Source: an uncultured Gemmata sp. (GTDB lineage Bacteria; Planctomycetota; Planctomycetia; Gemmatales; Gemmataceae). Taken from it: a stretch of DNA of 64,000 nt. Positions 2,392 through 64,000 of this stretch are shown here, in pieces. Both the position numbers and the translations under genes were made by a program. Position 1 is the stretch's first letter; each line of letters begins with the position of its first letter. Under the pieces are notes generated by a model. It did not search any database. It had not been told where the DNA came from and worked only from the letters and a program-made list of their open reading frames with translations. Where the stretch lies: positions 1 to 64,000 of the forward strand of contig CALDUT010000016.1 in NCBI GenBank assembly GCA_937924775.1, read 5' to 3'.

Positions 2392-3819
2392 TCAGGCGAT
2401 GATTTCGCGGATCGGTTGACCATGGTCGATATCGAGGCGTTTGCGCCCGGGGATTTCAAGTTTCCGCGAATCGAGCCCTAACTGATGCAAGATCGTGGCG
2501 TGAATATCGGTGACGTAGTGGCGGTGTTCTACGGCATGGAAGCCGATTTCGTCGGTGGCACCGTGGACAACGCCACCGCGGATGCCGCCGCCAGCCATCC
2601 ACACGCTGAAGCCATAAATGTGATGATCGCGACCGTCGCTACCCTGAGAACCGGGGGTTCGGCCAAATTCGGTAGCGAACAGCACCAGGGTTTCTTTGAG
2701 CAGGCCGCGGCGATGCAGGTCTTCGAGGAGCGCCCCGATCGGTTGATCAACGGCGAGGGCGTTGTTCTGGTGATTGGCTTTCAGTCCGCCGTGGGCATCC
2801 CAGGCACCGGCCCCGCCGGCTCCATGTTGCACCTGGATGAAGCGCACCCCGCGTTCCACGAGGCGACGGGCCGCGAGCATCTGCATACCGAACTTACGGC
2901 AATGCGGTAAGTCCAAACCGTAGAGCTTCTGGGTTTCCTCGGTTTCCTTGCTGAAATCGACTGCCTCGGGGATCGAGCGCTGCATGCGGAAGGCCAGTTC
3001 GTAAGACGCGATCCGGGCCGACAAAACCGCATCCTCGGGCGACTCCGCCGCCCGTTGGGCACTGAGCTTGTGGAGTAAATCGATGCCGATCGAGCGGGCG
3101 TCTGGCGAAACGGGCCGTTCGGGGTGGCTGAAATCGAGGGGGTTCTTCGGATCGACCCGCAACGGGACCGCATCGTGTGCCGGCCCCAGGTAATGGCCAT
3201 CGCGTTTGTTCCAATACTCGCGATTCCCAAACGAGATGTACTGGGGCAGATTGTCGTTCAACGAGGCCAGACCATAGTGAACCCACGCCCCAAGGTTGGG
3301 GAACTGGCCATCGTTCTGATGACGGCCCGAGTGAAACTGCACCTGCGCTCCATGATTGCTGTCGGTGGTCCACATCGAGCGAATGACGGCGATGCGGTCG
3401 ATCTGCTTGGCGATGTGCGGGAACCAGTCACTGACTTCGATGCCGCTTTGGCCGTGTTTTTTGAAACCCACCTGCATCGGGAACAGCGTGGTGCGGATGT
3501 TCCCGTTGGCATCTGGTACGACGAGGCGTTCGATGGCCAGCTTCTTCGGATCGAGGGTATCCGCGAAGGGTGTTTCCTGGATCGTCTTGCCTGCGTATTT
3601 GTTCAGAATCGGCTTGGGGTCGAAGCTTTCGAGGTGGCTGAGTCCGCCGTTCATGAAAAGCCAGATGACGCTTTTGGCTTTCGGGGGAAAATGGGGTTTG
3701 CCATCCGGCGGGGACCATTGGCCATCCCGGCTGTAACCGTCGCGGTGGAGCATGGCCGCGGCCGCGATGGCCGCGAAACCGGACACAAACTGGCGTCGGG
3801 TCGAATATTCGGGAATCAT
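2392..3819 (-). CDS. DUF1501 domain-containing protein
   Basis: This 475-aa protein begins with a twin-arginine-like leader ([10 protein letters not shown] plus an Ala-rich stretch). The rest matches the planctomycete DUF1501 family, which has a sulfatase/alkaline-phosphatase-like fold: [18 protein letters not shown] near residue 53 and [21 protein letters not shown] near 380. It starts 13 bp after the end of the DUF1549/DUF1553 gene, the usual pairing in Planctomycetes, so the two are probably translationally coupled. The function is unknown; export and action with the partner cytochrome on polymeric substrates is the common inference. The Shine-Dalgarno is weak (AAAGAG), consistent with coupling. 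Confidence 0.9.
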
Positions 3820-3832
3820 TGCGAGAATCTCT

Positions 3833-6800
3833 TTAAGGGATCATGATGAAATCGTTGTGATTGAGGAGGACCCACATCAGCTGGGCGCGAGCGAACATCG
3901 TGGCAGCCGGGTCCTGACCGGCTTCGGGCAATTTCCGCCACTGGGCTAGCGCTTGCAGGCACGCATCGCATTCCCGCGCGCTGGGGGTGTGGGCCAGGAG
4001 TACCAGGAACGCGGCTCGCACAAACGCCTCATCGCTGTCCGCCGCCTTCTGGCTGCGGAGCCACTGGCTGAGGCGTTCGGCGATCGGGCGGGACACATCG
4101 AGAACCAGCCGACTGTTGGTCATCGCCAAGGCCTGTTGCGGTACGATGCTCTGTTCGCGGCGATAACAGTCGGTCACCCGGGCCTCATCGAAGGTCGTGA
4201 GGAAGAGATTGCGCTCGTTGTTCGAGTGGAAAAAATAGAGGCTCCGCCGTTTCGAAGTCGCTTGTTCCGCGGGCGGCACGGGCGGCCCGCCCATCCGGGT
4301 ATCGAGCTGATCGGCCAACGCCAGCAGGCTATCGCGGACCACTTGGGATTCCATCCGCACGGGTGTGCGTCGCCACAGGTAGACGTTGTCGGGATCGCGG
4401 GCGCGGTTGTCCGCCGATGCGGCCGAGCTGGCGAGGCGATACGTCGCGGATTGTACGATCACGCGGTGCAGATGCTTCATGCTCCAGCCTTTCTCGACGA
4501 ATTCGCTGGCGAGCCAATCGAGCAACTCGGGATGGGTGGGCGGCTGTCCTTTGCGGCCGAAGTCGAACACCGTGGGCACCAGGGGCGTGCCGAAATGCCG
4601 ATTCCAGATGTGGTTGACCGCGACCCGGGCCGTCAGGGTGTTGCGAGGATCGGTGATCCACTTGGCCAACGCGGTACGTCGTCCCGTGCTTTGGGGCAAG
4701 AACTTCGGGGCCGGGTCATCCGCGGTCGAGTTCCGGAATCGGGTCGGTGTCCACCGGGCCCCGACGAATTCTTCGAGTTTTTCCGTCGGCACGATCTCGG
4801 CAGCCAGGGCCGCCTGGGCTTGCTGGAGAGCCGCTTGAGCCGACTGGACAGCCTTGGTCGCAGCCGCTTGCTGGTCGGGTGTGGTCGCACGCGGGTGTTC
4901 CCGCTGGGCGAGAGCTAAGGCATGTCGCGCTTGGGCCACTTTCAGTTCGCGCGCCGCACGAATCGCTGCGGCGTGCTTACTCCGCTGTTCGCTCTCAGCC
5001 GCTTGGGACCAGATCGCTTGCCAGGCTGCGGCTCGCTGTTCGACCGCCGCCAGCTCCGCCCGGGCGAGCCCGACCAGGGCTTCCGCAATGGCTTGCTCGG
5101 CTTGCAAATCGGCCCAAGTGGGGGGCAGTTCACTGGTCAGCAATGGGCTTTCGGGGCCTAGCAGTTCCACGTCGGCCGGGAGCGGCTCCACTCGGAATTC
5201 GTGGAACACCGCCAAGGCGTCGAACGTGATCAGTTGCAGATGCCCGTCGCGACGGGCCAAGGGGGTTTGGCAAGCCAGTACCGGCACGCCGTTGAGGTAG
5301 GCGTTGATCGTTCGATCGCGCACCTGCACCCGTAGCGTATATTCACGCTGAAGTTGGATGGGCAGCGGCCGCTGCGCTGGTGCGGGGGGATAGTGCCACT
5401 GGCCACCGTCGTTATAAGCCGCTTGAATCTTTGGGCCGCCGGCATAAGCACTGACATACACCAGTTGTTCGTGATAGGTCTTGGCCGTGTCCTTTGTTGG
5501 GTCATCTGCCGCATCGAAACTCAGGCTAATACTCCGCCACTGACTGCCCCCCCGGAGTGTGAATCGGAACGTCGCGTCGAAATCGCGCGGGGTCTTCTCA
5601 AGCCATCGCAGCACGGCGCGGTGCGCGCCATCTTGCTGTTGCTCCAGGCCATCGGGATGTAGCTTCCACTGCCCGCCGAATTGTTTCCACCGTTTCGGAT
5701 CGAGCTTGTCAAATTTTTCGACCCCGCGAAGTTCGTTCTTCGCGTCCGGGGCAGGCGGTTTTTGAGCCGGGCGGCTCTCCGATGGGGTCGCTGTCCGGCG
5801 GGCGATGTCTGCCTGGATTTTCGCCAAATGACCTTCGGCCGATGCGAGTTTCTGCCGGGCTTGGTTGATGTGGTTCTGGACCACCCAGGCGCGGCGTTGG
5901 GGCTGCCACGCCTCGGCGGGTAACGCCACGGCTTTGATTTCGGGCAATTCGGGGGTCAGGATTTTGGGAGTCGCCGGGGCAATACTCCGGGAGGTGTCCG
6001 GGTTCTTCTCATCGCCGCGCACAAAGCGGTAGGTGGGGTCGTCGGGCCAGGCATCGAACACCCGCGGCAGGCCATTGCGTTCCAGATTCGGCTCGCCGGG
6101 AAGCACATCGAGGCGAACATGGTACGGTTCAAAAAACGCCCGCAGTTGATAGTAACTGATTTGCGGGAAGGGATCGTACTTGTGGTCGTGGCAGCGGACG
6201 CAGTTCATCGTCAGACCCAGGAACGCCTTGCTGACGTGTTCCACAGTTTCATCCATCCACTGATGACGATTGAACAGGAAGTAATTGCGGGCGAGGAAGC
6301 CGGTGGCCCGCAGTTTATTCAGATCATTCGGAAAGAGTTCATCCGCTGCGATCATCTGCCGGATCATCTCATCGTAGGGGACATCGTTATTCAGCGATTC
6401 GATGATCCAATCGCGCCAATGCCAGATGTGCTTCTGGCTGTTCCGCAGTTCGTTGCCCAGCCCCCACCAATCGCTGTAACGCCAAATATCCATCCAATGG
6501 CGGGCCCAACGTTCGCCGTAGCGAGGATCGTCGAGCAGCCGGTTGACAGTGCGTTCGTACCAGTCGGGGCGTGGATCGGCTTCCACCGCGGCGATCTCGT
6601 CGGGCGTTGGCGGTATCCCGATCAGGTCGAGCGACAGCCGGCGCAACAAGGCGATGCGCGGCGCTTCCGGTTGTGGCGTCAAGTTGCGCTTCTCATGCTG
6701 CTGGGCCACGAACGCATCGATCGGATTGCGTACCCACGCTGCGTTCTTAACGTTGGGAAGTGCGGGCCGCGTGATTGGTCGGTAGGCCCAATGCTCCCGG

Positions 6801-7201
6801 GGATCGGCTTCGGGTTTCTCATCCGCAGGATGGGGGGCACCGGCGCGAATCCACTTCCGCAGAAGGTCGATCTCAGCCGCAGTCAGGGGTGATCCTTCGT
6901 GTTCGGGGGGCATGCGCTCGGCGGCGTCGTGGGCCGAAACGCGCAGAATGAGTGGGCTTTTGTCCGGTTCTCCCGGCACGAGGGCCGGTCCGGACGAGCC
7001 GCCCGTCAGCGCTGCGGCCACCGTATCGAGGCGTAGCTTGCCATTCTGTTTGAGTGCTCCATGACAAGCGTAGCAGCGGGCTTCAAGAAGTGGTTTGACC
7101 TGTTTGCGGTAGTCCTCATTCTCGGCTCGCCCCACCGCGGGAAGCCAAGCCAAACCGGCGATGACGGCCAGCCCGTGGATACTCGCGATGAACGTTTTCA
7201 C
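3833..7201 (-). CDS. Planctomycete cytochrome C / DUF1549 / DUF1553 protein with inserted beta-sandwich domain
   Basis: This 1122-aa exported protein starts at GTG with a GGAG site upstream and has a signal peptide. A PSCyt1-type heme motif (CYACHG) lies near residue 43 with its RLDT extension. DUF1549 follows ([19 protein letters not shown] to about 400) and DUF1553 is C-terminal ([20 protein letters not shown]). Between them sit an Ala/Gln-rich, probably coiled-coil stretch and a beta-sandwich like the 3-keto-disaccharide hydrolase domain ([18 protein letters not shown]). The family is very abundant in planctomycetes but biochemically undefined; one covalent heme and a periplasmic oxidoreductase role are inferred. 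It is the first gene of a likely operon with DUF1501 and the sialidase-like gene. Confidence 0.9.
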
Positions 7202-7821
7202 GACTCCGACTCCTAGATCTCATCGTTCTTCAAACATCCACAACATCTGTTGCGTGTGGCGTTGCATCCGACGGGGGGGATTACTGATACGCGGGTTATT
7301 CTGGCCCCCACCCGGGGAGAATGAGTTTCCCGTACGGGTTTGGGGGGGCACCTCGGGCTGAGAGTTCTTCCCCTCACTGCACCGATTCCACGGTACCGCT
7401 TTCCTGACGCGGTTGGGCTGGCTGTGCCCGGCAGGTTTTCTCTTTCATAACTGATTCTTCTATAACCGATCGCGCAAGCTCATTCAACGAAGATACAGGC
7501 ATCGTTGGGAGCCAGCGTGCGGGAGGAACTTCTGACACCAAATGGCTTACCGCAACGGCGGTTCTACCCAAGCCGCTGGGACCTAACGGGGATGCTCCGC
7601 CAGCTCAATTCTGGCCGTTGGGGTCAGCAACAGCTTGCGCGTATCGATTGGCCGTTAGTGATGGCCAGGCAGCGTGGGTGGCAGTGTGAGGTTGTTGGTG
7701 GGAGGACGTTTTGAAAGCTTAGCAGATTGTTCGCCACCAAGCTTTGTGATTTTCCGGATATTAAGGCCTATAGGTTATTACGGTTAGGTCGATTGGCCAG
7801 AGAGGGCGCACAGTCTGCGGG
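7202..7821. other. Intergenic region, no gene recognised
   Basis: About 620 bp between two minus-strand genes. Both strands were read: the only ORFs are short, start at weak codons and have no recognisable motif. It presumably holds the promoter of the DUF1549/DUF1553 operon at its low-coordinate end and the 3' untranslated end of whatever lies upstream. I see no tRNA, riboswitch or repeat here. Confidence 0.5.
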
Positions 7822-10101
7822 TCATTTCTTTTCCTTCTGTGAGCGTGCGATTTTCTCGATGGCCTGGCGAGCTGCGAGACCGACCAGGGGATCGTCGCGG
7901 AGTTCCTGCAAGCGGGGCAGAGCGGATCGGGCCGCTGTACCGATCTGTCCGAGAGCTTCGGCCGCGGCGATGCGTTGCTCCGCGTCGGGATCGTCGAGCA
8001 GGCGGCGCAGTTGCGGCACTGCTTCCTGCGCGGCGGGGCCGAGTTGCCCGAGAGCTTTGGCCGCGGCGGTGCGGGTGGCGGTGGCAGGATCGCGGAGCAA
8101 TTTGAGAAGCACCGGCCGATCGGCGGGTGTGGGGCCGATAAGAAGCAGGATTTCGGCAGCCGCGGTGCGGGTGGCGGCGTGACGGTCGGTCAGGCCAGCG
8201 CGGACGTCGGGGGCGGCGTGGCGGATGTCGCCACCGATGGCGGCGCGGGCGGCTTTGGCCCACAGGCTCATCCCCGGTTGTTGGCTGGCCGTGAGGGCTT
8301 CGACATCGGCTTGAGCGGCTTTGGCGCGGGGGCCGGCGATGGTCAAGGCTCGAATGGCCGCCAAACGGGGGCCGGTCTGCCGGTCGGATTGGGCGAGTTT
8401 CACCAAGGTCGCCACCGCATCGGCGGGAAGAGGGTTCAGATGGCCCAGCGCGTCGGCGGCGGCCGCCCGGAGGGTGGGGTCGGTCGCGGCGGCGGCTTTC
8501 ACCAAGGCACTGGCGACCGCCGCGGAGGCGGGATCGGCGCGGGCCACGGCCTGCGCGATCTTGGCCCGATGGTTGAGGCTGACGTCCCGGTCGGCCAGAA
8601 GCGGCAAGAGGGCCGTGACCGCGGGCTTGGCGTCAGTGCCCATCGCCAGGAGAGCTTCGATGAACACCGTGCGGATGTCGGATTCTTCCTCGTGGGCGAG
8701 AGCCTGGCCGAGAGCTTCTGCGGCCGCAGCTCCCGCCGGGCCTAACTGAACCAACACATAGCCGGCGAAGCGACGGATTTCCGGTTCCGTGTCGGTCAAT
8801 CGCTGGCTCAGATCGGCGACGGCTTTCGTCGCGAGGGCCGGGGGAATCTGACTGACCAGCCACACCGCAGCGGCCCGGGTGTTGGGGTTGGCATCGTTCA
8901 TTTTGGCCAGCGCCAGAGGGATCAGTTCCTCTTTGGCAGCTCCCATGCGGGGCAGGCCTTCAATGGCGACGGCGGCTACACCGGCGTTGGGGGCGTCGAG
9001 GGCGCGTTTCATCAGGGCCAGAACGTCGTCGGGAAATTCGCCGAGCGCATCGAGTGTGATGGCCGCATCCACTGCGACTTCGACGATAGTATCGCCAAGG
9101 GCCTTTTTGAGGGCCTCTTTGGCGGTGTGGGCCGGCTGGCCGATTTCGCCGAGTGTACGGGCCGCGAGCATCCGCACCAAGGGGTTGGTGTGTTCCAGCA
9201 GTTTCGCCGTGGGGGCGACCGCCGCTTCGCCAATGGCCGCCAACGCCTTCCAGAAGGTCCGCTCAGGACCAGTGAGGCTGGCGGTCCGCGGATCGAACTT
9301 CTCCGGGTAAGCCTGGGTGATGGCGTCGATGAGCTGTGGCGTGGCCGGGGCGGCCAGTGTGCCGGCCCGCGCCAAGCCTTCCGCGGCGGCTACTTGAATG
9401 TTCGTGTTGTTGCTGGCCAGGGCTTTCGCCAAGGGGTCGACCGCTTCGGCGGGCATCGCTGTCACTTCGGGAATCAACTGTGCGGCCAAACGCACAATGT
9501 CTTCATCCTCGTGAAGCAACAGTTGGGCCAGCGCCACGGGGTCGGCCACACCCAGCACCCTCAGCGCATCGAAAGCCACACCCCGAACGTTGGCATCCGG
9601 GTCGCTGCACAATTTCTGAACATCCGCGGCCAACGGTTGTCCCAGAGGCCCAAGTAGGCTGATGGTGTAGATGGTGTGTTCCCGAATGACCGGAGAGCTA
9701 TCCTTCAGTTCGTCGCGGAGAATGGCCAGCCCCCGCTCTTTCATCACCTTCTCACCCTGGGTGCATTGCAGAATGGCGCGCGCGGCGGCTTCCCGCGTGC
9801 TATTAATTTGATTGGGAAGCGTACGGCCGGCTCCGGCGGTCTGCTTATCCTTGAGAAGCTCGACTAACGCCGGCAGCACCGCGGGGTCGGTTTCGGCCAA
9901 CCACGCCAGCTCGTCGATCGCGGCTTGCCGCGTGGCGTGTTTGGGGCTTTTGAGCGCGTTGAGGTATTGGGTACGTTCCGCGGCCGCCTCGGCGAGTGGG
10001 GCGGGCGCGGGTTCGGGTGGAGATTCGCTTCGAGGTTTCGTGCCGCAGCCGGCCAGCACGCCACAACCGATGAGCAGCACCCCGACGAAGAATGGTTTCA
10101 T
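7822..10101 (-). CDS. HEAT-repeat lipoprotein
   Basis: This 759-aa protein has a lipoprotein signal: a short hydrophobic leader ends in the lipobox LAGC, so Cys19 is the probable lipidated residue. Almost the whole mature protein is a series of roughly 35-40-residue helical repeats with recurring patterns such as AAAEALGQIG, RRLLDDPDAEQR and AAAKALGQLGPAAQEAVPQL, typical of HEAT/PBS-lyase-like repeats. Such solenoids bind proteins; no catalytic motif is visible. It probably sits on the inner face of the outer membrane or the outer face of the cytoplasmic membrane as a scaffold. It is transcribed away from the divergent DUF454 gene. Substrate and partner are unknown. Confidence 0.85.
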   Translation of the reverse strand: MKPFFVGVLLIGCGVLAGCGTKPRSESPPEPAPAPLAEAAAERTQYLNALKSPKHATRQAAIDELAWLAETDPAVLPALVELLKDKQTAGAGRTLPNQINSTREAAARAILQCTQGEKVMKERGLAILRDELKDSSPVIREHTIYTISLLGPLGQPLAADVQKLCSDPDANVRGVAFDALRVLGVADPVALAQLLLHEDEDIVRLAAQLIPEVTAMPAEAVDPLAKALASNNTNIQVAAAEGLARAGTLAAPATPQLIDAITQAYPEKFDPRTASLTGPERTFWKALAAIGEAAVAPTAKLLEHTNPLVRMLAARTLGEIGQPAHTAKEALKKALGDTIVEVAVDAAITLDALGEFPDDVLALMKRALDAPNAGVAAVAIEGLPRMGAAKEELIPLALAKMNDANPNTRAAAVWLVSQIPPALATKAVADLSQRLTDTEPEIRRFAGYVLVQLGPAGAAAAEALGQALAHEEESDIRTVFIEALLAMGTDAKPAVTALLPLLADRDVSLNHRAKIAQAVARADPASAAVASALVKAAAATDPTLRAAAADALGHLNPLPADAVATLVKLAQSDRQTGPRLAAIRALTIAGPRAKAAQADVEALTASQQPGMSLWAKAARAAIGGDIRHAAPDVRAGLTDRHAATRTAAAEILLLIGPTPADRPVLLKLLRDPATATRTAAAKALGQLGPAAQEAVPQLRRLLDDPDAEQRIAAAEALGQIGTAARSALPRLQELRDDPLVGLAARQAIEKIARSQKEKK

Positions 10102-44434: not shown

Positions 44435-44782
44435 ATGGCGACCAAGATCATCGTCCAACTCCCCGTCACGGGGGCTGTCGGTACGGATGAAGACTTCGAT
44501 CTACGCACCCACCTGGAACGTGAGCTGAATTTGGCCTTGCGCACCGAAGAGGCCGGCGAATGCGATCGCAGCGAAATTGATGGCGGTTGGATGCGCTTTT
44601 GGCTGGTGAATGGGGTTGATCCGGCCCAAACGCTGGAAATCGTCAAAGACGTTCTCGCCCGCGACAATCTACTGCCGCGAGCCGTTATCGCTCTCGAAAC
44701 CTGCCACGATGTCGATACCGACGACATCGATCGCGAAATCCTCTGGCCCGTGCAGCCTGCCGCGGCTGTGGGTTTGGCTTAA
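44435..44782 (+). CDS. Small conserved protein of unknown function
   Basis: This 115-aa protein starts at the ATG at 44435 after a strong GGGAGGG site; the track start is earlier and less likely. It contains LRTHLERELNLALRTEEAGECDRSEIDGG and ends in DIDREILWPVQPAAAVGLA. It is acidic, with alternating alpha and beta segments and no signal peptide. I do not recognise a named family. An AT-rich palindrome (AAAAATTAATTTTT, 44339-44352) lies about 85 bp upstream and may belong to its promoter. Confidence 0.7.
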   Translation: MATKIIVQLPVTGAVGTDEDFDLRTHLERELNLALRTEEAGECDRSEIDGGWMRFWLVNGVDPAQTLEIVKDVLARDNLLPRAVIALETCHDVDTDDIDREILWPVQPAAAVGLA

Positions 44783-44892
44783 ACTCATCGTTTCCCCTCT
44801 TCCCGGTGGCATCTGGGCGACCGGCTCCCTTTTATTGCGCGGGGCGAATTTATAAGCCATACTTCTCGGAAAAGCCTTCGTTGGGTTTTTCC

Positions 44893-45288
44893 ATGCGCAA
44901 CTTCATCGCCGGTCTGATTCTCCTCGCACTCTTTGTCGTGGTGGTGGGTAGCCGGTTCCAAGCCACCGATGCTGATAAACTGCGAGCGGTTTCCCAGGTC
45001 GTCGTGGCTAAGTTGCGCGAGGCCCTGCCACCGACACTCAACCTCCGGCTACCGGTTGCGATGATGGGCCAGGAACAATCCCAACGGCCGGTTGATGCCG
45101 TTCGTGCCCGTTTGGCCAGCGACAAGCGCTTTGCCGGTATTGCGTTCACGGTCACTGCGGAGGGCAATATCGTGACCCTGCGCGGCGTCGTACCGAATGC
45201 CACCCTGCGACGGCTCGCTGTGGGCGTGGCTCAGAACACAATCGGTGTTGAAGGTGTGATCGACGAATTGGCAGTGCCGGCGGAATGA
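44893..45288 (+). CDS. BON-domain exported or membrane-anchored protein
   Basis: This 131-aa protein begins at the ATG at 44893 with a hydrophobic N-terminal segment (FIAGLILLALFVVVVG), a signal anchor or signal peptide. The rest has a BON-type alpha/beta fold: VDAVRARLASDKRFAGIAFTVTAEGNIVTLRGVV, then RRLAVGVAQNTIGVEGVIDEL. BON domains bind phospholipid or outer-membrane components. It precedes the TRIP13-like ATPase by 137 bp on the same strand; whether they work together is unknown. Confidence 0.8.
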   Translation: MRNFIAGLILLALFVVVVGSRFQATDADKLRAVSQVVVAKLREALPPTLNLRLPVAMMGQEQSQRPVDAVRARLASDKRFAGIAFTVTAEGNIVTLRGVVPNATLRRLAVGVAQNTIGVEGVIDELAVPAE

Positions 45289-45425
45289 ATCCGGGGAACG
45301 ATCCATCGTTCGTCACAAACGCCCGTCACCCGCAACCCCTAGGGTGATCGGGAAGCCCTGCGGGCAACCGCCGTTCGTGACCCGAGCTGCTTCACCCATC
45401 ACCCACTGGAAACGAAGGAAATATC

Positions 45426-46370
45426 ATGGCGCACGCGACCGCGGAATCGACCCCACCGCCGCCCAATAATGGCGACAGCGGTTATGAATTGGGGATTCTC
45501 GAACGCCGTTTGCTCCCCAGTGAGGATTTTTTGGCCCTCTGGGATGCCATTCTCATCGACCCGGCCATCAAGGACCGGCTCTTGGCTCAATCGCTATTGA
45601 ATTTCACGATCCGGCCAACGGTCGATCGTTCGCGATTACCCCTGCACGGCCTGATTCTTTTGGTCGGTCCGCCGGGCACCGGAAAAACATCGTTGGCCCG
45701 CGGGCTGGCCGCCGTGACCGCGGCGCGGATGCCTCATTTGGGGCCGTTTCAGTATCTGGAGGTGGACCCGCACGATGTAGCCAGCGCGGGGCTGGGGCAG
45801 CGGCAGAAAGCCGTGACGGAATTACTCGGTAACACCATCGCCCGTTATGCCCGGCAACGGCCGACGATCGTGCTGTTGGATGAAGTGGAAACGCTGGCGG
45901 TCGCCCGTTCTGGGTTGAGTATGGATGTCAACCCCATCGATGTTCACCGGGCCACCGATGCCCTCTTGGCACAGCTCGATGTACTCGCGGCCAACACCCC
46001 GCGGTTGCTTTTCATCGCCACGAGTAACTTCCCGGAAGCGATCGACGAGGCGTTTTTATCGCGCAGTGATTTGTTGGCGACCATTGATCGCCCGTCGGCG
46101 GAGGCGTGCCGCAAGATTTTCTTCAATACCATTCACGCGTTGGCGGATCATTACCCGGCGGTGCGGGCTCTCCTCAATAGCCCCGAGGTGGAAAGTGCGG
46201 CCGCGATTTGTCGCGATCTTGACGGCCGGCAGATTCGCAAGTTTGTTCTGGCCGCTTGTACGTTGCGCCACGAAACCGCCCTTGATCCCAACACCCTGCA
46301 AGCGCAGGATTTTCTGGAAGCTCTGCAACGCGGCAAGGAAGAGCACCGCAACCTCAAAGATCGCCGGTAA
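45426..46370 (+). CDS. TRIP13/Pch2-like AAA+ ATPase
   Basis: This 314-aa protein has the TRIP13/Pch2-type lead-in FLALWDAILIDPAIKDRLL (cf. LWDSLVYD in animal TRIP13). It has Walker A GPPGTGKTS (81-89), Walker B and the family signature IVLLDEVETLAVARSG (148-163), sensor 1 ATSN, Arg finger region FLSRSDLL, and the sensor-2 region LDGRQIRKFV. TRIP13-family ATPases unfold HORMA proteins; bacterial versions act in CBASS defence as Cap6. No HORMA protein, CD-NTase or effector is in this window, and the protein lacks the long N-terminal domain of eukaryotic TRIP13. The partner is unknown. It is convergent with groEL1. Confidence 0.85.
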   Translation: MAHATAESTPPPPNNGDSGYELGILERRLLPSEDFLALWDAILIDPAIKDRLLAQSLLNFTIRPTVDRSRLPLHGLILLVGPPGTGKTSLARGLAAVTAARMPHLGPFQYLEVDPHDVASAGLGQRQKAVTELLGNTIARYARQRPTIVLLDEVETLAVARSGLSMDVNPIDVHRATDALLAQLDVLAANTPRLLFIATSNFPEAIDEAFLSRSDLLATIDRPSAEACRKIFFNTIHALADHYPAVRALLNSPEVESAAAICRDLDGRQIRKFVLAACTLRHETALDPNTLQAQDFLEALQRGKEEHRNLKDRR

Positions 46371-46474
46371 GTGAGGTTGCGTCGCCGGCTCTGACGCAAA
46401 CACGTCATTCCGGGGAAGAATTCTATCCGAGAAACTGATGAAAGCCCCCTGGCGGGGTGTTGACTTTCCATCAG

Positions 46475-46513
46475 CAAAAAACGCCAACAGAGGCTCCGGG
46501 CCCCTATTGGCGG
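46475..46513 (-). terminator. Rho-independent terminator of groES1-groEL1
   Basis: On the minus strand the transcript reads CGCCAA, an inner helix AGGGGC/GCCTCT, then TTGGCG followed by TTTTTT. The stem (CGCCAA 46482-87, TTGGCG 46507-12) and the T run fit an intrinsic terminator about 90 bases after the groEL1 stop. Confidence 0.82.
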
Positions 46514-46600
46514 TAGTTTATTATGGCTCCCGCGGGCGAACCGGTGGTGGTGGCGCTGGTTCGCCGGAATCGATGGCCGTGGCAGGCCGTGGTACTTTAT

Positions 46601-48238
46601 TTAGTAGAGGTCGTCGTAGTTGCCGCCGGCGGCTCCTTTCTTTTCTTCCTTCTTTTGCTCCTCGGCGATGAGGGCGTCGGAGGTGAGAAGCAGTGTGGCG
46701 ACGCTGGCCGCGTTTTGCAGGGCGCTGCGGACCACCTTGGTGGGGTCGATGATGCCGCGTTTCATCAGGTCGGTGTATTCGCCGCTGCGTGCGTCGTAGC
46801 CGAAGTTCTTGTCGCTGTTGGCGAGAACTTCGTTGATGACGACGTTGCCATCTTCGCCAGCGTTTTCGACGATTTGTTTGATCGGTGCGCGGCAGGCCCG
46901 CACGATGATGTTGTAGCCGATTTGTTCATCGTCGGTGAGGTCGCTGCTGGGTTTGAGGCCTTGGCTGGCTCGCAGCAGGGCGGTACCGCCGCCGGGCAGA
47001 ATGCCCTCTTGGTGCGCGGCTTTGGTGGCGTGCATCGCGTCTTCGACGCGCATCTTCTTTTCCTTCACTTCGCTTTCGGTGGCCCCGCCGACGTTGATCT
47101 TGGCCACACCGCCGGAGAGTTTGGCGATACGTTCGCTGAGTTTTTCCTTGTCGTAATCGCTGGTGCTCTTTTCCAATTCCTTCTGGATGCTGGCGATGCG
47201 GGCTTTGATCGCGTCTTTCTTGCCGCCGCCTTCGATGATCGTGGTGTTTTCCTTGTCGACCTTGATCTTCTTGGCTTTACCGAGCTGATCGAGGGTGACA
47301 GTTTCGAGTTTCAGGCCCAGATCTTCGAAGATCGCTTCACCGCCGGTGAGGATAGCGATGTCCTGGAGCATGGCTTTGCGGCGATCACCGTAGCCGGGGG
47401 CCTTCACCGCGCACACCTTCACTTGGTAGTTCGACTTGATGACGTTGACGACCAACAAGGCCAGCGCTTCGCCATCCACTTCTTCGGCGATGATCAGAAG
47501 CGGCTTGCCTTCACGAACGACTTTCTCCAGAAGCGGCAGAATATCGCGGGCGGCACTGATTTTCTTCTCGTAGACGAGGACGTAGGCATCTTCGAGGATG
47601 CATTCCATCGTCTCGGGATTATTGATGAAGTACGGCGACAGATAGCCGCGGTCGAACTGCATCCCTTCAACGAATTCGTAGGTGGTTTCGAGGCTCTTGC
47701 CTTCTTCCACCGTGATGACGCCGTCTTTGCCGACTTTGTCCATCGCTTCGGCGAGTTTGCGGCCGATGTCGGCATCGCCATTGGCAGCGACGGTGGCAAC
47801 GTGTTCCAAATCTTGTTTGCCTTTCACCGGGATGCTCATTTCCTTGAGCTTGGCGACAATCTCTTCAACGGCTTTATCCATGCCGCGCTTCATGAGCATG
47901 GGATTGGTGCCCGCGACAACAGCTTTCAATCCTTCGTTGAAGATGGCTTCCGCCAACACCGTTGCGGTCGTGGTGCCGTCGCCGGCGACATCGGAAGTCT
48001 TGGACGCGACTTCCTTGACCATGGCCGCGCCCATGTTCTCATAGTGGTCGGGCAGTTGGATTTCCTTGGCCACGGTGACACCGTCTTTGGTCACCGTCGG
48101 GCTGCCGAAGGATTTTTGGATGATGACGTTGCGGCCTTTAGGCCCCAGTGTGACCTTGACGGCCTTGGCCAGTTTGCTGATCCCGCGTTTGATGGCGTCG
48201 CGGGCTTCTTGGTCGAACGCGATTTGCTTGGCGCTCAT
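46601..48238 (-). CDS. groEL: 60-kDa chaperonin GroEL, paralogue 1
   Basis: This 545-aa protein folds client proteins in a double-ring cage with GroES. It has ATP-site D87 in [11 protein letters not shown] and the hydrolytic Asp in [12 protein letters not shown]. The apical region [16 protein letters not shown] keeps the Tyr and Phe that bind substrate and GroES. The C-terminus ends in NYDDLY and lacks the Gly-Gly-Met tail. It is 66 bp downstream of groES1, the standard order, and is followed by a strong terminator. A GAGGATCAGGA site precedes the ATG. A sigma-54-like promoter lies upstream of groES1. Confidence 0.97.
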
Positions 48239-48304: not shown

Positions 48305-48598
48305 CTATTCGATGACGCACAAAACGTCGCCTTCGTGCATCAGCAGCAGTTCGTCGCCGGTGGCGCGATCTTTGAATTCGTCGCCCGCCCACGAGGTGAA
48401 CAGCACTTTGTCGCCCACCTTCAATTGCAGGGGGGTGCGGGTGCCGTCCTTTTGCAGCTTGCCAGGACCGACCGCCAGTACTGTTCCGCGTTGGGGTTTG
48501 TTCTTCGCAGTATCGGGTAGCAGAATGCCGCCGGCAGTTTTGGCTTCCGCCGCTTCCCGACGCACCACGATCCGGTCGCCGATTGGTTTCAGGCCCAT
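48305..48598 (-). CDS. groES: Co-chaperonin GroES, paralogue 1
   Basis: This 97-aa protein is the lid of the GroEL cage. It has [29 protein letters not shown], with the mobile loop (about 16-32) that contacts GroEL, and a C-terminal ELLLMHEGDVLCVIE. A GGAG site lies 7 bases before the ATG. It is first in the groES1-groEL1 operon. Confidence 0.97.
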   Translation of the reverse strand: MGLKPIGDRIVVRREAAEAKTAGGILLPDTAKNKPQRGTVLAVGPGKLQKDGTRTPLQLKVGDKVLFTSWAGDEFKDRATGDELLLMHEGDVLCVIE

Positions 48599-59421: not shown

Positions 59422-61107
59422 TTAGGCGATCGCACCGACAACAGGTTTCTTCTTCTCATCCTCATCCAACCGGGTGACCAACACCTCGGTGGTGAGCATC
59501 AGCCCCGCGATACTGGCGGCGTTCTGCAGAGCGTTGCGGGTGACGCGGAGCGGGTCGATGATCCCGGCTTTGAACATGTCTTCGTACTCGCCGGTGTTGG
59601 CGTTGTAGCCGATGTTGGGGTTCTTCTCGCCGCGAGCAATCACTTCGGCGGCAATCACCGCGCCATCGGCACCGCCGTTTTCGGCGATGGTGCGAATCGG
59701 CTTGGCCAGTGCCCGTGCCACAATTTCGGCCCCGACGCGTTCATCATGTTTGAGCTTTTCGGCCAAGGCCTCGACCGTCGGGATACATCGCAACAGAGCC
59801 ACGCCGCCACCAGCCACAATCCCTTCAGCCACCGCGGCGCGGGTCGCGTGCAGGGCATCCTCGACGCGGCCTTTGGTTTGCTTCATTTCCGCTTCGGTGG
59901 AAGCCCCGACCTTGATAATCGCCACGCCACCGCCGAGTTTGGCGAGCCGTTCGGAGAATTTCTCCTTGTCGTACTCGCTTTCGGTTTGGTTCATCTGCGT
60001 GCGGATGGTGTCCATACGGGCTTTGATGGCCGCTTGCCGTTCTTTGTCGGGTTCCACGATGATCGTGGTGCTTTCTTTGTCCACGATGACCTTGTTGGCC
60101 GTACCGAGCAGTTTGAAGACTTTCGGTTCGGGCCGGGCTCCCCGTTGTTGCTCTTTGGCGCTGGGTTCTTCCATGCTATCGAGGGCGATCCCGCGATCCT
60201 CGCTGATGAAAGTACCGCCGGTGAGAACGGCGATGTCTTCCATCATGGCTTTGCGGCGATCCCCGAAGCCGGGCGACTTGACCGCACAGACTTCGAGCAA
60301 GCCACGCAGCCGGTTCACCACCAACACGGCCAAGGCTTCGCTTTCAACGTCGTCGGCGACGATCAGAAGCGGCTTGCCCGCGCGAGCCACCGCATCCAAC
60401 AGTGGCAGCATTTCGCGAACATTCGAGAGCTTCTTCTCATACAAGAGCACCAGTACGTTCTCTTGTTCCCATTTCAGATCCGGGGTGTTAACGACGAAGT
60501 ACGGCGAGATGTAGCCTTTGTCGAACTGCATCCCCTCAACAAATTCCTGGACGGTTTCGGAGGTTTTGCCTTCCTCGACGGTGATAACGCCATCGCGGCC
60601 GACTTTCTCGAAGGCTTCAGCCATCATTTCGCCGATTTTGGGGTCGTTGTTGGCCGAGATGGTAGCGACCTGCTTCATTTCATCCTTCTTGGAGACGGGT
60701 TTTTTCAGCGTCTCCTCGAGGTATTTGACGGCCGCGGCCACGGCTTTGTCGATACCGCGTTTGACGGCCATCGGGTTGGCCCCCGCGGTGATGTTCCGCA
60801 GGCCTTCTTGGTAGATGGCCAAGGCCAGGACGGTGGCCGTGGTGGTCCCGTCGCCGGCGATATCGGAGGTTTTCTGGGCGACCGCGTTGACGAGCTTGGC
60901 CCCCATGTTCTCGAACGGGTCGGGCAGTTCAATTTCTTTAGAAACGGTGACGCCGTCTTTGGTGACGGTCGGCCCGCCGAAGGATTTTTCGATGATGACG
61001 TTGCGCCCGGTGGGGCCGAGAGTCGAGCCAACGGCACGGGCGAGTTTCTCCGCACCGGCCAACAGTTTCTTCCGGGCTTCGTCAGTATAGAGCAATTGTT
61101 TGGCCAT
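59422..61107 (-). CDS. groEL: 60-kDa chaperonin GroEL, paralogue 2
   Basis: The ATG at 61107 (GGAG site) begins [18 protein letters not shown] and gives 561 aa. The ATP site [11 protein letters not shown] (D86) and the hydrolytic Asp in [12 protein letters not shown] are intact. The apical [20 protein letters not shown] differs from paralogue 1. There is an insertion near 335-350 ([17 protein letters not shown]). The C-terminus ends [11 protein letters not shown], with no GGM tail. It lies 124 bp after groES2 and is followed by the dnaJ-grpE pair. Its sequence differs enough from paralogues 1 and 3 to suggest a specialised client set. Confidence 0.96.

Positions 61108-61681: not shown

Positions 61682-64000
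<2,319 letters not shown>

Follow-up and report, generated by a model that had tools for sequence, protein, structure and literature searches.

The cap6 locus in a variable spot of Gemmata genomes

Within the window, that is, the whole stretch of 64,000 nucleotides analysed here from an uncultured Gemmata sp. (genome G000), an open reading frame (ORF) of 314 aa without internal stop lies between a gene for a BON-domain protein and a convergent groEL (Table 1). The predicted product belongs to the TRIP13/Pch2 type of AAA+ ATPases, in agreement with an initial interpretation of the letters alone (the sequence-only reading). Within that family it falls in the bacterial Cap6 clade, and the gene is referred to here as cap6. 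The neighbours named in that reading are likewise found at the locus, namely the BON-domain protein, a 115-aa protein without family match, and groEL, which is accompanied by groES.

Table 1. Features of the cap6 locus, in window coordinates
Feature	Coordinates	Strand	Evidence
115-aa protein, core neighbour	44435..44782	+	no Pfam, NCBIfam or PADLOC match
BON-domain protein, core neighbour; start may be a downstream ATG	44806..45288	+	PF04972 E=1.3e-11
Gap between BON gene and cap6, upstream edge of the spot; purine-rich AAGGA just 5' of the ATG	45289..45425	.	sequence, Gemmata comparison
cap6, solitary Cap6/TRIP13-type AAA+ ATPase (predicted), 314 aa	45426..46370	+	PADLOC PDLC00915, PDB TRIP13, Cap6 alignments
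Gap between cap6 and convergent groEL	46371..46600	.	no HORMA or cyclase remnant
groEL, right-hand border of the spot	46601..48238	-	PF00118 E=1.9e-80, synteny
groES	48305..48598	-	PF00166 E=5.9e-31

The gene order in Gemmata runs, with some losses, from ThiF, SufS-like, Omp28-like, the 115-aa protein and BON through the spot to groEL, groES, HEAT and thiolase. When window positions 45289-46600 are compared with the homologous spots (loci L112, L113, L116 and L118), the counterpart is near-empty in G011 (428 bp). In G009 it carries a TIGR02996-domain gene, in G012 a TIGR02996-type gene (by ORF similarity) interrupted by a transposase-like ORF, and in G026 three polysaccharide-export-like paralogues. 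Among the Gemmata compared, cap6 occupies the spot only in G000 and in its sister species, G022. Thus, the content of the spot varies among Gemmata, and cap6 was either added to it or left over in it. Of the neighbourhood spanning 44435-46370, the part comprising the 115-aa and BON genes is kept across Gemmata, whereas cap6 itself is confined to G000 and G022. The 115-aa protein is present without cap6 in G009, G010, G011, G012 and G026, and the BON protein lies beside groEL in Gemmata genomes that have no cap6. Because both occur in Gemmata genomes without TRIP13, they are ruled out as dedicated partners of the ATPase. Nor is there support for regarding the 115-aa protein as its substrate, this protein being conserved by groEL in Gemmata species that lack TRIP13. 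We also note that the window contains three groEL paralogues within 17 kb (46601-48238, 59434-61104 and 61715-63364; identity to the first 100%, 57% and 57%, respectively), an arrangement that is also present in G022.

The predicted ATPase and its kinship with Cap6 of type III CBASS

The PADLOC TRIP13 model PDLC00915 matches residues 22-309 of the ATPase with 392 bits (E=3.5e-118), compared with E=6e-16 for the next PADLOC model family, IetA. In the PDB, human TRIP13 (E=3e-27) and C. elegans PCH-2 (E=2e-24) rank first, with Cdc48/VCP (p97) weaker at 3e-17, and a model of FtsH reaches only 5e-7. Membership in another AAA+ clade, such as the FtsH-like placement that the sequence-only reading had set against its own assignment, is ruled out by the PADLOC (PDLC00915 versus IetA) and PDB (TRIP13 versus Cdc48) comparisons, both of which place TRIP13 first. 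The Pfam model of the TRIP13 C-terminal lid (PF23242) gives 15.9 bits against a curated cut-off of 27, a cut-off that is indecisive for bacterial members because a bona fide CBASS Cap6, that of Polaromonas, stays below it as well, with 20.4 bits.

The TRIP13/Pch2 motif set, comprising Walker A, Walker B, sensor 1, a single arginine finger and the sensor-2 arginine, is complete in the ATPase. Alignments place Walker A (GPPGTGKT) at G81-T88, Walker B (LLDE) at L150-E153, sensor 1 (TSN) at N201, the one arginine finger at R213 (FLSRSD) and the sensor-2 motif (GRQIRK) at G267-R-Q-I-R271-K, with the pore-loop region at residues ~117-127. The single arginine finger and the sensor-2 motif set Pch2/TRIP13 apart from the p97/NSF remodellers (PMC4439613). 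The motifs quoted at the outset are also present, ALWDAILID spanning residues 37-45 and LLDEVETLAVAR residues 150-161. The orphan has the single arginine finger and sensor-2 in common with eukaryotic TRIP13/PCH-2, its best relatives in the PDB, but the identity is ~31% and it has neither their N-terminal domain nor their W/F pore-loop pair. An AlphaFold model built from two sequences was set aside (mean pLDDT 48).

Cap6 is known as an accessory protein whose targets are the HORMA proteins encoded in the same operon. A tblastn search of 72,556 plasmids with the ATPase returned 13 records (12 bacterial and one haloarchaeal), and all 12 bacterial relatives, at 42-53% identity, reside in type III CBASS operons with the order Cap6, second HORMA, HORMA, CdnD cyclase and effector (often NucC). 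In CBASS operons the HORMA gene overlaps the cap6 stop. The effectors of the annotated plasmid operons are NucC-type DUF6602, SAVED or four-TM proteins, and on the unannotated plasmids of Tistrella and Shinella the HORMA and cyclase genes were recognised by profile. Within the phylum, a survey of 95 family, 392 phylum and 398 class genomes (overlapping sets) yields Cap6 matches above 300 bits only in G000, the source genome, in its sister G022, and in G581 and G585, where the order Cap6, HORMA, HORMA, CdnD and NucC-like is that of a type III CBASS. The Cap6 of G581, from a complete planctomycete CBASS, is the closest relative outside the G000/G022 pair (55.7% identity). In the CBASS of G585 (L137, G585:C61:1-14000, 3636-6511, minus strand), both the cap6 and the cyclase reading frames are interrupted in the assembly, which reflects either a decaying operon or sequencing errors. 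The tree places the orphan pair among CBASS-linked Cap6 with poorly supported deep branches, and a single clade of the orphan pair with planctomycete CBASS Cap6 is compatible with the data (p-AU 0.478) but not demonstrated. A phage origin was rejected, with no phage record matching at 1e-10 and the viral-contig matches being generic AAA+ proteins of <=31% identity.

The orphan is 51-56% identical over near full length to Cap6 of two-HORMA type III CBASS (Methylobacterium pNYY1_1, Polaromonas plasmid 1 and G581), with the same motifs, the same PADLOC model and, in both, no N-terminal substrate domain. In contrast, type III CBASS Cap6 is encoded directly 5' of two HORMA genes, CdnD and an effector, all of which are missing beside the orphan. 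Of the 62 columns that are invariant across 14 CBASS Cap6, 59 are unchanged, the exceptions being L118V, G264D and A303G. The pore-loop stretch reads GQRQ in the orphan, as opposed to GKTQ/GKSQ in most CBASS Cap6, and E140R is a further change alongside L118V. The altered pore loop is not accepted as proof of a new substrate, since several of the changes are common to the CBASS-linked Cap6 of Rhodococcus, which also has Q125, L134 and A160.

Orphan status and selection in two species

No significant HORMA match was obtained across the source genome with PF18173, PF18138, A1, A2 or the PADLOC HORMA model PDLC00883, nor in G022 with A1, A2 or PDLC00883, where A1 (HORMA), A2 (second HORMA) and A3 (cyclase) are profiles built from plasmid sequences. 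The bacHORMA_1 and bacHORMA_2 models were run on G000 only, and A1, A2, A3, SMODS and PDLC00883 on both G000 and G022. In neither genome does the CdnD profile find a match at E<=1 or SMODS (PF18144) at E<=0.1. The A1 profile recovers two archaeal HORMAs of Haloarcula, a very divergent one at 4e-17 and another at 6.6e-6. In scans of single loci it also recovers those of G615 (8.8e-25) and G675 (1.2e-11), and its reach is therefore wide. At the locus itself there is no effector, convergent groEL following cap6, and the HORMA, second-HORMA and CdnD profiles, run by hmmsearch on all six frames, detect no remnants of these genes flanking cap6. The gene is an orphan in both assemblies. The observation that neither HORMA nor CD-NTase accompanies the ATPase in the window thereby extends to the whole genome and to the sister species, and the proposal of a HORMA partner elsewhere is unsupported by profile searches of either assembly. 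Both genomes are 97-98% complete, G000 being a draft in 27 contigs, and plasmids lost from the bins are invisible to these searches and could still carry such a partner.

In G022, the orphan cap6 occupies the same locus and its product is 88.9% identical to that of G000. Between the two genes, codon positions 1, 2 and 3 carry 34, 16 and 119 changes, with a dN/dS of 0.09 and a dS of 0.81, compared with a dN/dS of 0.10 for the neighbouring HEAT gene and of 0.05-0.15 for pairs of CBASS-embedded Cap6. Thus, cap6 is under purifying selection, with a constraint of the same order as that on CBASS-embedded Cap6. The dS of cap6 is close to that of its neighbours (0.77-1.02 with groEL and groES left out), so that cap6 was already present in the common ancestor of G000 and G022. 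A relic that is decaying after the loss of CBASS and no longer functions would agree with the disappearance of the partners and with a gene standing alone in a spot of gene turnover, but is very unlikely, as neither species shows a broken frame or a damaged motif and the distribution of changes over codon positions, at this dN/dS and a dS of ~0.8, speaks against it. An assembly or binning artefact that placed a foreign gene in a Gemmata contig could be imagined for a window from a draft genome, but is extremely improbable: in JANWYJ010000008.1 (SKYG68), which was assembled independently, the genes across the locus lie in the same order at 77-90% DNA identity, and the GC content of cap6 equals that of its neighbours.

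Possible roles of a solitary Cap6

The identity of the protein, Cap6, is already known, and it is the solitary, selected state that is unusual; no title or abstract found in a mostly open-access literature describes a solitary Cap6. The motor has apparently outlived, or become separated from, the anti-phage immune system that it regulates. Our leading interpretation, held with about even confidence, is that of a solitary Cap6 that descends from type III CBASS, is kept by selection and probably still remodels a HORMA protein supplied in trans. Remodelling of HORMA is the most economical reading because the enzyme looks intact and constrained. In type III CBASS, Trip13 takes apart the active HORMA-cyclase complex (PMC10419184). 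Cap6, a hexameric TRIP13-like motor that belongs to type III CBASS with two HORMAs, would have become solitary in an ancestor of the two Gemmata-like species, entering, or staying behind in, the BON-groEL spot without HORMA, cyclase and effector genes, and purifying selection would have maintained it since. ATP-driven threading of part of the HORMA protein into the Cap6 pore would open the closed HORMA, and the solitary Cap6 would in this way break HORMA-cyclase complexes. The HORMA would be supplied by CBASS on plasmids or other mobile elements, outside the chromosome, whose activation the solitary Cap6 would damp or block. The family, the intact active-site motifs, the lack of detectable partners in both assemblies, the conserved position and the purifying selection are observed, whereas we infer the ATPase activity, the HORMA substrate and the damping role. 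The occurrence of the orphan in only two species counts against this interpretation, as do GQRQ in the pore loop, E140R and L118V, changes that might point to another substrate. Were a CBASS to lie on a plasmid that dropped out during binning, the enzyme would be an ordinary Cap6, only unlinked from its system.

It is possible, although we suggest it only tentatively, that a CBASS regulator has been domesticated, as a chromosomal enzyme that stands alone, either as a host-encoded anti-CBASS factor directed in trans at the HORMA-dependent immune complexes of incoming plasmids or other elements or for a wholly new substrate. If the solitary Cap6 is kept by selection, CBASS regulators can be domesticated, and the gene offers a natural test of action in trans on foreign CBASS versus a gained substrate. 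This bears on how TRIP13-type remodellers passed from immunity to other functions of the cell, as in eukaryotes. The specific case of a repurposed remodeller that took on a non-HORMA substrate of the cell after loss of CBASS is one we consider doubtful. It would account for strong purifying selection in two genomes without detectable HORMA, and for the GQRQ pore loop together with L118V, E140R and G264D, but nearly all conserved Cap6 columns are unchanged (see above), several of the changes recur in the Rhodococcus protein, and the neighbouring proteins are not co-inherited with the ATPase and so offer no candidate substrate.

A HORMA partner too divergent for the profiles, or encoded on a chromosomal stretch absent from both assemblies, would instead make the orphan part of a non-CBASS HORMA-TRIP13 switch. 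HORMA-TRIP13 pairs lacking a CdnD-type cyclase occur in both Planctomycetota and haloarchaea (G615, G675 and a Haloarcula plasmid), where, as for the orphan, a TRIP13-type ATPase lies outside a recognised cyclase operon. However, these ATPases are only 26-32% identical to the orphan and retain at least one HORMA gene that adjoins or lies near the ATPase gene and that the profiles applied to G000 and G022 recognise (best E=1.2e-11 to 8.8e-25), whereas the best matches in G000 and G022 are scraps at E=0.36-0.61 in non-matching places, two of them with a stop. We regard such a hidden partner as quite unlikely, and retain action on a HORMA supplied in trans as the preferred reading.

The divergent pairs differ in their surroundings. 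On the Haloarcula halophila plasmid (L049, 5962-10746), an archaeal TRIP13-like ATPase is accompanied by up to three HORMA-like genes and several unknown genes, with no match to the CdnD profile. In G615 (L138, G615:C290:6547-17027, 5920-10004), the TRIP13-like ATPase and two HORMA-like genes are followed by an HTH protein and an integrase, with no CdnD match in a view bounded by the contig end. In G675 (L139, G675:C240:18482-33000, 2464-8091, minus strand), the ATPase is a divergent TRIP13-like protein (PDLC00915 8e-32) with VVMNE as Walker B. Next to it come one HORMA gene (PF18173 8e-8), a gene for a protein without family match, and genes for an HlyD-like protein and an MdoH-like glucosyltransferase, and the 14.5 kb contain no CdnD. 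The location of this pair beside envelope-glucan genes possibly reflects a non-CBASS use.
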